DNA from: a virus
Direction: 5' to 3' (one strand)
IMG/VR virus record: IMGVR_UViG_3300037502_002453
Location: 1 to 41,245 of that record
Length of the DNA stretch: 41,245 nt
This document shows positions 2,237 to 31,612 of this stretch, in pieces. Below the pieces are notes generated by a model. It had not been told where the DNA came from and searched no databases. It saw nothing but the letters and a program-made list of their open reading frames with translations. The first letter of the stretch is position 1; each line of letters starts with the position of its first letter. Made by a program: the position numbers and the translations under genes.

Positions 2237-2899
2237 ATGGAAACAGCCGTAGCGTACGAAACACCCGCCGCCGCCGCCGTGCGCCTGATCAGCGTCACCC
2301 CCGACGCCGAGGCGACGATGGCCTACGTCGCGCGGGTCAGCAACCCCGCCAACCAGGACAACCCCGAGTACGCCAAGCTGCTGGCGTACTGCATCCGCCA
2401 CGGGCATTGGTCCGTGTTCGAGCACGCGCACATGACGCTGGAGGTGACGACGTCGCTCGCCGTCGCCACCCAACTCCTGCGCCACCGCAGCTTTACATTC
2501 CAGCAGCTCAGCCGCCGCTACAACGGCGACGCGCCGACGTTCGAGCGCGTGCAGTTGCGGCGGCAGGCGGAGAAAAACCGCCAAAGCAGCGCCGAGCCAA
2601 TCACGGACGAACACCTTGACCAGCTCATCGAAAGCCATTTTGCCAGCGCGGCCTGGCTCTACGGCAAGCTGCTGGCCGCGGGCGTGGCGCGTGAGTGCGC
2701 CCGTTTCATCCTGCCCCAAGCCACCAGCACCACGCTCTACATGACCGGCAATTGCCGCAGTTGGATCCACTACCTGCAACAACGGTCGCAACCCGATACG
2801 CAACTTGAGCATCGCCAGGTTGCCCTGGCGGCCATGGTTGTGTTTGCAAAGAATTTCCCAGTGGTCACAAAAGCCCTCAACATTTTACAAGGAGTTTAG
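2237..2899 (+). CDS. thyX: Flavin-dependent thymidylate synthase ThyX
   Basis: ThyX makes dTMP from dUMP using FAD, NADPH and methylene-tetrahydrofolate, supplying thymine nucleotides for phage DNA synthesis. The signature RHRX7S is present (R82-H83-R84 ... S92, read as RHRSFTFQQLSRRY), as are the early RVSNP segment and the conserved HWSVFEH region (residues 57-63). At 220 residues it has the usual family length. I chose the ATG at 2237 because GGAGG lies six bases upstream; an upstream extension from 2069 would run through the preceding gene and the hairpin. It shares the early operon with the recombination ATPase, which fits nucleotide and DNA metabolism. Confidence 0.96.
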   Translation: METAVAYETPAAAAVRLISVTPDAEATMAYVARVSNPANQDNPEYAKLLAYCIRHGHWSVFEHAHMTLEVTTSLAVATQLLRHRSFTFQQLSRRYNGDAPTFERVQLRRQAEKNRQSSAEPITDEHLDQLIESHFASAAWLYGKLLAAGVARECARFILPQATSTTLYMTGNCRSWIHYLQQRSQPDTQLEHRQVALAAMVVFAKNFPVVTKALNILQGV

Positions 2900-2902
2900 C
2901 GC

Positions 2903-3610
2903 ATGCTGTATCGCGTGGAGATCAAACTAGAATCCGACCTGCTCGGCAGCGTCCCCCTCGACCGCGACGTCTACACCGACTACATCGCGTCAAAAATCCC
3001 CGTCGCCGTCGCCGAAATCAACGGTCACAATTTTGACGCCGACATCGCCGCCATCCCCGAAGAAAAGCGCGGCGTCACCGGCTTCTTCAAGCTGCCCGAT
3101 GGCCGTCCCTACCTGGGCCGCCACGTCGTCAAGGGCTTCATGAAATCCGCCGTCGCCGCCATGCGCGCCGCGGAGAGCGCACCCGCCACCGGCCGCGCCA
3201 AAGCCGGGGCCAAACTCGATTTTTCGTCGAGCGCGCTCACGGCCTACGCCAGCAAGATCGACATGCTGGTCAGCGTGTGGCCGTTGCGAATCCCCCTGCT
3301 GCTGGCGGGTCCGCTGACGCAACTCAGCCGCCCGCTGCGTGCAATGACGATGCAGGGGCCGCGCGTGGCGTTGGCGTCGTCGGAGATGGCCCCGGCGGGT
3401 ACGTCGTTGGTGTGCGAAGTAGGGGTCATGGGGGATAGCACCATCACGCCCGACATGGTGCGGGAGATTTTCGACTATGGCGTCATTCAGGGTCTTGGCC
3501 AGTGGCGCGGGTCGGGCATGTACGGTCAATTCACTGCGGAGGTGACGAAGGTCGCCAAGCCGCAGTTTACCCCTCGCGCGTCCTGGAAATTCTTCGGGGT
3601 GCGGGGCTAA
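2903..3610 (+). CDS. Phage protein with RAMP-like (Cas7/Csm3-type) sequence features
   Basis: 235 residues, three bases after thyX. No certain family. The pattern resembles RAMP-superfamily RNA-binding proteins: an N-terminal strand (LYRVEIKLES), a central GRPYLGRHVVKGFMKSAV (residues 67-84) that looks like the PyIPGSSLKGaLRs segment of Cas7/Csm3 proteins, and a C-terminal Gly-rich loop GLGQWRGSGMYGQF (197-210) in the place of the RAMP glycine loop. I have an unverified impression that phage proteins of unknown function with a similar GxGQWRxSGxG end are widespread. No CRISPR locus is present. Directly downstream lies the 31-nt-phased pentamer array, so an RNA- or DNA-coating role on that element is a tempting inference. 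Confidence 0.75.
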   Translation: MLYRVEIKLESDLLGSVPLDRDVYTDYIASKIPVAVAEINGHNFDADIAAIPEEKRGVTGFFKLPDGRPYLGRHVVKGFMKSAVAAMRAAESAPATGRAKAGAKLDFSSSALTAYASKIDMLVSVWPLRIPLLLAGPLTQLSRPLRAMTMQGPRVALASSEMAPAGTSLVCEVGVMGDSTITPDMVREIFDYGVIQGLGQWRGSGMYGQFTAEVTKVAKPQFTPRASWKFFGVRG

Positions 3611-3626
3611 GTCGCGTAGACGCGCA

Positions 3627-4215
3627 GTAATGGCATTGCATAGCACAGTCAAGGCGAGGCGAAGCCGAGGCAAAGCGGTGTGTGGGCAAGGCGGCGCTAG
3701 GTGCGGGCAAGGTACTGTTCGCTCAGTGTGGGCTAGGTATTGTACGGTCCTGTCGCGCAGGGGCGGAGCAAAGCACGGCGGGGGCGCGGCATGGTTGGGT
3801 GTAGTCGCGCGGCGGCAAAGCTGCGTGTCGCGAAGCAATGCCCTGGCTAGGCGAAGCGCTGCATGACACCGTCCGGGCATGGCAAGGCAAAGCCGAGCGG
3901 CGTCACGGCACAGTTACGCGAGGCGGTGTCGCGTCCTGGCAAGGCAAAGCCCTGTGCCGTAAGCAACGGCAGGATAATGCGGAGTAGCGTACTGCGGCGG
4001 TGTTGCGTAGCCTCGTGTGGTGACGTGGTGGCGTAGTGAAGCGTGGCGTTGCGGCGTCATGGCACAGCGCAGCGGCGTCATCCACAGTCAGGGTACAGCG
4101 CAGCGATGCGTGACGTAGCGGTGGCAGAGCAAAGCAAGGCAAAGCAGGGCGGCGGCATAGCGTTGCGTGGCTTTGCAGCAGCAGAGAAACGCAGGGCAGC
4201 GGCAGGGCAATAGCG
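3627..4215 (+). repeat. Non-coding GY-pentamer array with 31-nt superperiod
   Basis: This gene-free stretch is made of five-base units that begin with G then C or T (for example GCAGA, GCAAA, GCAAG at 4124-4138). About every sixth unit is six bases long and nearly always ends in G before the next GY, so the register moves by one. Block starts fall at 3784, 3815, 3846, 3877, 3908, 3939, 3969, 4000, 4031, 4062, 4093, 4124 and 4155: eleven steps of 31 and one of 30. By hand, 72 of 77 expected positions from 3784 to 4175 carry GY. The left part (3633-3784) uses shorter blocks of 16 and 21. The units are otherwise degenerate. Open frames across it on either strand break the pentamer logic and look spurious. 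Confidence 0.92.
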
Positions 4216-4227
4216 AAGGGGGGCGAC

Positions 4228-4650
4228 ATGCGGGGGGCGAGTCGAATCGTGGTGGCCGGGGGGCAGGATGGCCTGTCCCCCGTCGTCAAGGCGGCACATG
4301 CTGAGTACGACAAGTTCGGCGGCCAGGTGGTGCTGGACAATGTAACCGTGCGGCTGTGGGATCATCGCCGCAACTGCCACGTCCTGTGCCGCGGCACGGT
4401 GATCAGCGTCGGCAAGCCCCCGCCCGTCAAGCCGGTGCGCCTGAAGAAGCGCGAAGCCGACGGCATCGTCCACCCCGACGCGCGGCGCATTCACCGCTAC
4501 CTTCAGCGCGTCAACGCCGCCACGCCGACGGAGATTGCGCGCGGGTTGACGATCAGCGCGGGCCGGGTGCGCTCGTTGCTCAGCACCCACGCCGACCTGT
4601 TCGAGGCGCGGCGACAGTCCAGCAACCAGACGTGGTACGGCGCGCGGTGA
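4228..4650 (+). CDS. Winged-helix DNA-binding protein
   Basis: 140 residues. The C-terminal half (about 85-135) reads as a winged helix: HPDARRIHRYL, then PTEIARGLTISAGRVRSLLSTH as helix-turn-helix, then a short wing. The N-terminal half is beta-rich and unrecognised. The ATG at 4228 follows a G-run (4218-4223) acting as Shine-Dalgarno and begins 13 bases after the pentamer array. Placed between the array and a strong promoter with a palindrome (4703-4718), it is a candidate regulator of that promoter or a binder of the array (inference). Confidence 0.75.
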   Translation: MRGASRIVVAGGQDGLSPVVKAAHAEYDKFGGQVVLDNVTVRLWDHRRNCHVLCRGTVISVGKPPPVKPVRLKKREADGIVHPDARRIHRYLQRVNAATPTEIARGLTISAGRVRSLLSTHADLFEARRQSSNQTWYGAR

Positions 4651-30213: not shown

Positions 30214-30608
30214 GCGTCCCCCCCATCTTTCGGCCATTCGCCCGTCAGCAACCATCGCCACAGGGCGGCAATTTGCCCCGGCATCCCTGTGAAATAACCG
30301 TCGTCCATTTGGCTAAACTTGAATCCCCACACCCGCATCCACGCCACATGCAGCACGCCAACCAGGAAACACAGTTCCCGCTCCCCATATCGGATGCTCA
30401 TCTCCACGTTGCCGTCACCGTCCGTCGAAAAATGCGGTTCGTGCCACTCCAAGCCAGCCCAGGCAATCGATCTTTGCAGGCGGTGGGCAAAGTTTGCCGC
30501 GCGGTCGGCTGCCACAGGGTCAACGCCGTCAATGCCCATCGCCTCGCGGTACTTTTCCACGCTTGCGCTCATGGCGTCGATCTTGGCCTTCCACTCTTCA
30601 ATGCTCAC
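30210..30608 (-). CDS. Hypothetical protein
   Basis: 132 residues from a GTG (30608) that overlaps the stop of the methyltransferase gene (GTGA). The longer frame to 30668 is not needed. Helical start (SIEEWKAKIDAMSASVEKYRE), then a mixed part with WHEPHFSTDGDGNVEMSIRYG and a Trp-rich end. Not recognised. It ends in another four-base overlap, so it is translationally coupled on both sides. Confidence 0.7.
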   Translation of the reverse strand: MSIEEWKAKIDAMSASVEKYREAMGIDGVDPVAADRAANFAHRLQRSIAWAGLEWHEPHFSTDGDGNVEMSIRYGERELCFLVGVLHVAWMRVWGFKFSQMDDGYFTGMPGQIAALWRWLLTGEWPKDGGDA

Positions 30609-31612
30609 GCGTCGCCCCCTTCCAGACGAAACAGCGTGCGCCGCCCGATGCAATGCGGCGAGAACCATAGCCGCTCCTTGTGCCGGTTGGCCTCGTTTAT
30701 GCCGCCGATCGCCTTGCTGCTGCCATACGCCTTGTTCGCCGAGTAGCCAACCATGCGCCAGGTTGACGGCATGTGCGCGGCATGCTCATCTTCGTAGCCC
30801 GCCAACACAATGCGGTAGCGGGGATTGTCCCCGTTGGCAATGGCCCACTCCCTCACCGCGTGCGCCACGTCTAGGTCGTCTACGGCATACAAGTCGGCGG
30901 TGCGCCCCGCCGCGTTGCTGTACGGCGGGTCAAGAAACACCCCAACGCTGTCGCCGTAATTCAGCGCGCCGCCGGTGACGACGCGGCTCCAGTCGCCGCA
31001 CACCACGCGCACGTTGCGGAGGCGAGCCGCAAGTTCGCGCATGTAGGTGTAGAGCGCGCCCTGCCCCGCGTCGCCCAGGTGCGGTAGCTTCCGGTTGACG
31101 CCACGCCCCGCGTCGCCCAGGTGCGGTAGCTTCCGGTTGACGCCACGCCCCGCGTCGCCGTCAACCGGAAGCGACGCGATGGTTTCGTAAGTGTGCGGTC
31201 CTGTGCCGCTGCACCAGCCGGAGCCGATCCACGCGCAAATGCCCCACACCCACCAGCCCGCAATCTTGGCGTCGTACCAGTCGGGGTCGGCCTCCATGCC
31301 CGCCTGCATCCGCCGCTTGCCCTCATTGACCAGCCACAGGTGACGCGCAAACAGGTCGGTCTCGTTAACGGGCCAGTCGGCATAATGCACCACCTGGTCG
31401 GGGTCATGCGCGAGCGCGCGCCAAAAATTCGCAATGTACTGGTCGGCGTCGTTGACCGTCTCGGTCGTGCCCTTATGCCACGTCGGGCGGTCAAGCAGTA
31501 CGGCAAGGCTGCCCGCAAACGGTTCGACGTAGTGGTCCACGTCGCCCAACGCCTCCCACACCTGCGGCGCGACTTTGCGTTTGCCACCGAACCACGGGAA
31601 TGGAGCCTTCAC
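30605..31612 (-). CDS. Dam-type (D12 class) N6-adenine DNA methyltransferase
   Basis: 335 residues. The family motifs are clear: FPWFGGKRKVA (5-15), the AdoMet motif YVEPFAGS (28-35) and catalytic DPPY (228-231, in FLDPPYSN). It would methylate adenine in a short DNA site, probably against host restriction. Residues 152-182 hold a tandem 14-residue repeat (GDAGRGVNRKLPHL) encoded by two identical 42-bp units, inserted in the target-recognition region. The start overlaps the previous stop by four bases. The sequence specificity cannot be read from this. Confidence 0.93.
   Translation of the reverse strand: MKAPFPWFGGKRKVAPQVWEALGDVDHYVEPFAGSLAVLLDRPTWHKGTTETVNDADQYIANFWRALAHDPDQVVHYADWPVNETDLFARHLWLVNEGKRRMQAGMEADPDWYDAKIAGWWVWGICAWIGSGWCSGTGPHTYETIASLPVDGDAGRGVNRKLPHLGDAGRGVNRKLPHLGDAGQGALYTYMRELAARLRNVRVVCGDWSRVVTGGALNYGDSVGVFLDPPYSNAAGRTADLYAVDDLDVAHAVREWAIANGDNPRYRIVLAGYEDEHAAHMPSTWRMVGYSANKAYGSSKAIGGINEANRHKERLWFSPHCIGRRTLFRLEGGDA
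31064..31147. repeat. Two identical 42-bp tandem repeats inside the Dam-type gene
   Basis: Unit 1 (31064-31105) and unit 2 (31106-31147) are identical; 12 bases of a third unit follow to 31159. The segment 31129-31142 then pairs with 31159-31172 as a perfect 14-bp-arm inverted repeat. In-frame unit length (14 codons) allows copy-number change without loss of the reading frame. Confidence 0.93.

Follow-up and report, generated by a model that had tools for sequence, protein, structure and literature searches.

The closest described counterpart of the locus analysed here is VIPR (Viral Interference Programmable Repeat; bioRxiv 2026.04.26.720920, PMC13142463), typified by Escherichia phage SUSP1, in which a Vipr protein, described as an ancestral phage RAMP, is associated with a vrRNA. 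The vrRNAs consist of 9–16 YNNGG repeats, the preprint permitting 'a related consensus', in which the variable NN specify a double-stranded DNA target with one base skipped per repeat; they bear a structured 3' tail, co-purify with the protein and act in trans, in the repression of competing phages, and the loci 'typically' include a vap (Vipr-accessory) gene (PMC13142463). Other types comprise staggered arrays with overlapping vrRNAs, hammerhead-interspersed arrays and 'only one vrRNA' systems (PMC13142463). VIPR is presumed to predate CRISPR and has been put forward both as the root of CRISPR effectors and as a small programmable DNA binder that needs no protospacer-adjacent motif. Here, we analysed a 41,245-base virus record (IMG/VR IMGVR_UViG_3300037502_002453; this whole stretch is referred to as the window), in which the gene of a RAMP protein is directly followed by an array of five-base repeats, or pentamers. 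This locus is very likely a variant of VIPR rather than a separate kind of system: in the explanation that we regard as probable, a Vipr-like RAMP (2903–3610) would work with a guide-RNA array (3620–4198) to repress the DNA of competitors.

The array is real and counts roughly 120 pentamers. A hidden Markov model (HMM) places its limits at about 3620 and 4198, with regular units clear from 3627, in agreement with the 17-base gap between gene and array given by an earlier sequence-only reading of this DNA. Over positions 3621–4210, identity at lag 5 reaches 0.48, whereas 2000 dinucleotide shuffles average 0.284 ± 0.019 and never exceed 0.34 (z 10.3), and the lag spectrum displays further peaks at 16, 21, 26 and 31, that is, at 5n and 5n+1. 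Similarly, G-Y dinucleotides spaced by 5 or 6 bases form chains of up to 28 members in the array, whereas no chain exceeds 17 in 1000 shuffles; outside the array, the maximum in the window is 9 or 11, depending on the strand. The HMM parse yields 97 five-base and 23 six-base steps, the five-base units having G at position 1 (0.94), C (0.72) or T (0.24) at position 2 (0.96 for both together) and variable bases at positions 3–5, the first of which is purine-rich; the extra base is a G in 91% of the six-base steps. The array region exhibits no extra folding (z −0.6) and no Rfam match.

The same layout is found throughout the family of the window protein, whose relatives (29–41% identity) are common in IMG/VR, in phage records and in prophage-looking bacterial contigs. 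In all 29 non-redundant loci of a first set, the homologous gene has a pentamer array next to it on the same strand, just downstream in 24 and just upstream in five (L011, L018, L027, L031 and L070), the weakest array being that of L003. Among 308 genomes of one bacterial family, 10 carry the gene, in 12 places (one of these genomes is that of L027 itself), and an adjacent array was detected by the lag-5 test in 10 of the 12. By comparison, an emission-based scan, which favours C-rich units and misses T-type arrays (those were found by lag-5 identity and the trained HMM), returned no array on either strand of 652 kb of unrelated control viral contigs. Because an array stands beside the gene in 29 of 29 loci and again in the later bacterial ones, and none was found in the controls, the pairing is not a matter of chance, and these data support the view that the RAMP protein belongs with the pentamer array in a single system. 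The sequence-only reading had named homologues regularly lacking a pentamer array as a refuting outcome; the homologues are instead regularly accompanied by one, and the reading is supported. That the array arose by chance, from base composition or as an artefact of coding sequence in a GC-rich genome, with no relation to the gene, could be imagined since the region is GC-rich and overlaps spurious open reading frames; with a z of 10 against dinucleotide shuffles, the same layout beside divergent homologues, AT-rich phages included, and the empty controls, this explanation is refuted and retains practically no probability.

Array length is variable. Long arrays of the family hold from 28 to 230 units, and a sub-branch (L195, L196 and L198) possesses single arrays of about 17–20 units. 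In L190, the gene is immediately followed by a stretch of 25 units, with another of 62 units 1.9 kb further on; L070 has, besides the adjacent array, another long one of 175 units, some 3.5 kb upstream of vipr; and L197 shows only a short array-like stretch, upstream of the gene and read by eye. The variable positions are near hypervariable, both between arrays and inside single arrays. Within some arrays, modules of 6–9 units are duplicated with a few changes (units 8–16 and 31–39 of L067; also L071 and L199), and arrays therefore seem to grow by internal duplication; the number of such modules is too small for guide and scaffold positions to be distinguished.

The five-base step with a periodic extra base, first noticed in the window, proves to be real and general. 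Over the family, the six-base steps are quasi-regular, with a mean run of 5.7 units and a variance of 4.4 versus 26.9 expected if they were random. Helical phasing (5.25 bp per half turn) was considered as the cause of the extra base, but the module length varies between phages, with means of about 4 to 7 units, which disfavours a single fixed geometry. In many phages, the bases near the extra G are less variable (e.g. GCAAAG or GCAACG before it). Arrays of only about 17–20 units already hold several extra Gs, and since this is the length of a single vrRNA, the extra G is not a simple separator of guides.

Table 1. Annotated features around the array, in window coordinates.
Feature	Position	Strand	Basis
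thyX	2237–2899	+	PF02511
vipr-like gene, 235-residue RAMP protein with RRM/ferredoxin-like core	2903–3610	+	family alignment, model, fold search, profiles
Motifs of the vipr-like protein: conserved SRPLRAMTMQGPRV segment and C-terminal glycine-rich loop GLGQWRGSGMYG	within 2903–3610	+	family alignment
Pentamer array, about 115–120 G-Y-N-N-N units, with about one extra G per 6 units; candidate vrRNA array	3620–4198	+	HMM, lag statistics
Most regular stretch of the array: six-unit modules (31 nt), e.g. GCAAG GCAAA GCCGA GCGGC GTCACG	3871–4110 (approximate)	+	HMM parse
140-residue protein, start codon just past the array; possible vap-like accessory	4228–4650	+	weak helix-turn-helix match

The product of the vipr-like gene holds GRPYLGRHVVKGFMKSAV and GLGQWRGSGMYG, and the residues invariant in the family alignment comprise LG (14–15), an RPLRAMTMQGxRV segment and a GxxQxR...G loop. 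Neither Pfam, NCBIfam nor PADLOC offers a useful family for the window protein, which also lacks a direct sequence match in the PDB. Some family members match PHROG 4652, a phage family without assigned function (best E 8e-6; E 0.08 for the window protein itself). We modelled the protein with AlphaFold2 from a 23-sequence alignment (predicted local distance difference test, pLDDT, 82.7; predicted template modelling score, pTM, 0.79). In Foldseek, the model ranks chains of type VII Cas7 and Csm3 first (E about 1e-7), and VIA-align gives a Z of 12.5 over 170 residues for type VII Cas7 and of 10.8, at 2.7 Å over 133 residues, for Cmr4; the top viral model matched in the fold search is annotated as a RAMP superfamily protein. 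According to this model, the window protein is a RAMP-fold protein with a ferredoxin-like/RRM core, as the sequence-only reading had suspected from RAMP-like motifs, and the C-terminal glycine-rich loop which it had taken for a RAMP feature is conserved across the family. The fold library used is older than the SUSP1 Vipr structure, so that Vipr is absent from the fold ranking.

On the + strand, the gene and its array stand between thyX, upstream, and a short open reading frame whose product resembles a sigma-70 region 4 helix-turn-helix at E 0.06, a weak match below the cut-off. thyX directly neighbours vipr in two distant members of the family, upstream in the window and downstream in L198 (9469–10107). 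In the sub-branch of L195 and L197, vipr is followed by a sigma-70-like gene and preceded by a short Bro-N-like gene, both possible accessory genes. Ribozymes were detected upstream of vipr in two loci, a type II hammerhead at about 0.5 kb (L066:3449–3514) and a pistol ribozyme at about 2.2 kb (L005:2741–2790). Elsewhere in the window, a perfect 42-base tandem repeat (2.3 copies, 31063–31159) lies inside a methyltransferase-like open reading frame of the minus strand (30605–31612).

The likeness to VIPR extends over protein, locus and array. VIPR, encoded mainly by phages and prophages, relies on a single small RAMP with an RRM core, a G-loop and a thumb, and the window protein displays the RRM core and the G-loop in its model, its fold search and its conserved loop; in both cases, the locus is minimal and lacks cas genes, and adjacent, non-coding, same-strand tandem pentamers combine a conserved G-Y with variable bases. 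Indeed, in the SUSP1 genome, used as a yardstick, GGYNN arrays flank the vipr gene, and the single arrays of L195, L196 and L198 resemble the 'only one vrRNA' systems. Among the six-frame open reading frames of that genome, the family profile ranks SUSP1 Vipr first (E 3.5e-4, the next being at 0.94), and against the PDB it retrieves type VII Cas7 (21bh, E 4e-4), Csm4 (E 0.01) and, weakly, SUSP1 Vipr (36pp, E 0.18). At the sequence level, the SUSP1 match supports shared RAMP ancestry more than it proves Vipr membership, and it is the array, rather than a protein sequence match, that ties the family to VIPR.

Several observations weigh against this assignment. The alignment to SUSP1 Vipr is restricted to the C-terminal loop region, which is common also to Cas7 and Csm4, and judged by its sequence alone the protein could belong to any RAMP branch. 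The units are G-Y-NNN, the first G of GGY being conserved only at extra-base positions (in the window, the base before GY is a G in about two of five units). The array extends to the ribosome-binding site of the next gene, and no structured tail could be recognised at its 3' end, though a tail of some other kind may exist. No vap gene conserved across the family was found and, within about 4 kb of vipr, no conserved neighbour gene at all; the window contains no ribozyme, hammerhead included; and none of the searches run found a natural target. In addition, the array of this locus is long and unbroken, the long arrays of the family have 28–230 units instead of the 9–16 repeats of a vrRNA, and six-base steps recur every 5–7 units, in short arrays too. 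The family may, however, already be among the types that the preprint describes with staggered or overlapping vrRNAs.

CRISPR effectors offer the nearest solved folds. Type VII Cas7 (8yhd, 8yhe, 8z4j, 21bh) is the best match of both model and profile, whereas the present locus is phage-borne, carries five-base repeats and has neither Cas14 nor a CRISPR array. The Csm3/Cmr4 backbone of type III likewise shares the RAMP core and the fold of a filament-forming subunit (Z 10–12), but here no Cas10, Csm or Cmr neighbours are present and the nucleic-acid step is five bases, not six. A Class 1 CRISPR–Cas effector of type III or VII was rejected, as there are no CRISPR-like repeats in the window, no PADLOC match and no conserved neighbour.

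Targets were sought by gapped decoding, with guide bases at unit positions 3–4 or 4–5 (and others), target steps of 2–5, and with and without a shift at six-base steps; in 2.1–2.8 Mb of sequence, to which prophages from the same host family contributed, these decodings yielded no more matches than shuffled arrays did. An apparent excess under one rule was discounted, as the contigs had been picked with that same pattern. In two exact pattern scans of IMG/VR with the duplicated L067 module, the matches end at the seed, and neither the decoded peptides in tblastn nor the decoded triplets in blastn produced anything beyond chance or simple-repeat matches. These searches have low power, since the competitors of these phages may lie outside the searched sets and the reading rule may differ from those tried.

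The units themselves carry one further signal. At positions 3–5 of 3025 five-base units, TAA and TAG, the two most depleted of the 64 triplets, occur together 49 times versus 106 expected, a depletion that holds whichever base stands at position 2, whereas TAC and TAT occur as expected; TGA shows no depletion, and TAG is uncommon in these genomes as a whole. This depletion would be consistent with guides that derive from reading frames, or are matched to them, and in which all three bases are informative; we report it as unexplained. Such avoidance of TAA and TAG, and not of TAC and TAT, as if the triplets were codons, together with the sequence and fold matches to type VII Cas7, could point to a RAMP–array system parallel to VIPR, reading three bases per G-Y-NNN unit on RNA or DNA targets and nearer to type VII Cas7 than to Vipr. 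We hold this to be unlikely, as TGA is not avoided, decoding of contiguous triplets gave no target, and Vipr could not compete in the fold ranking. That the locus is a VIPR branch with a code of its own, in which the three variable bases of each unit would be read as target codons and the extra G would register a very long filament with DNA, is a somewhat better, still tentative, proposal.

The failure to find targets would also agree with an array that has none in trans. It might then be a cis-acting RNA or DNA element, the RAMP cooperatively coating its own mRNA or the phage DNA for autoregulation or as a packaging or replication mark. Every first-set locus indeed has its array adjacent to the gene and on the same strand, in many cases immediately within the 3' or 5' untranslated region, and the mean step of the array, about 5.2, extra base included, would come close to half a DNA turn. 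A cis coating site, however, needs no near-hypervariable positions, the second array of L070 lies 3.5 kb away, and the vrRNAs of VIPR act in trans (PMC13142463); we consider a cis-acting element distinctly unlikely.

A VIPR-type mechanism thus remains the explanation that we favour. The fold, the homology, the array with its regularly placed extra base, and the constant association and orientation of gene and array are observed, and a guide function would follow by analogy with VIPR, RNA binding, DNA targeting and repression being carried over from the preprint (PMC13142463). The array would putatively be transcribed on the strand of the gene into one or more guide RNAs, along which copies of the protein would line up, probably one per five-base unit, gripping the conserved G-Y. 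The variable bases would be presented for pairing with the DNA of a competing phage or mobile element, and binding would block transcription of the target. The extra G found every 5–7 units most likely serves to bring RNA and filament back into register. The filament proposed by the sequence-only reading, in which a RAMP would step along RNA, matches the published VIPR mechanism (PMC13142463).

These results would extend VIPR to a wide range of phages and prophages, from the high-GC environmental phage of the window to prophages of gut Clostridia and Hydrogenobaculum phage 1, in an extended form whose arrays reach 230 pentamers and carry an additional base at periodic intervals. The contrast between the two array grammars can reveal which bases are held and which are read by the filament, and the long arrays may be a record of numerous earlier phage–phage conflicts.
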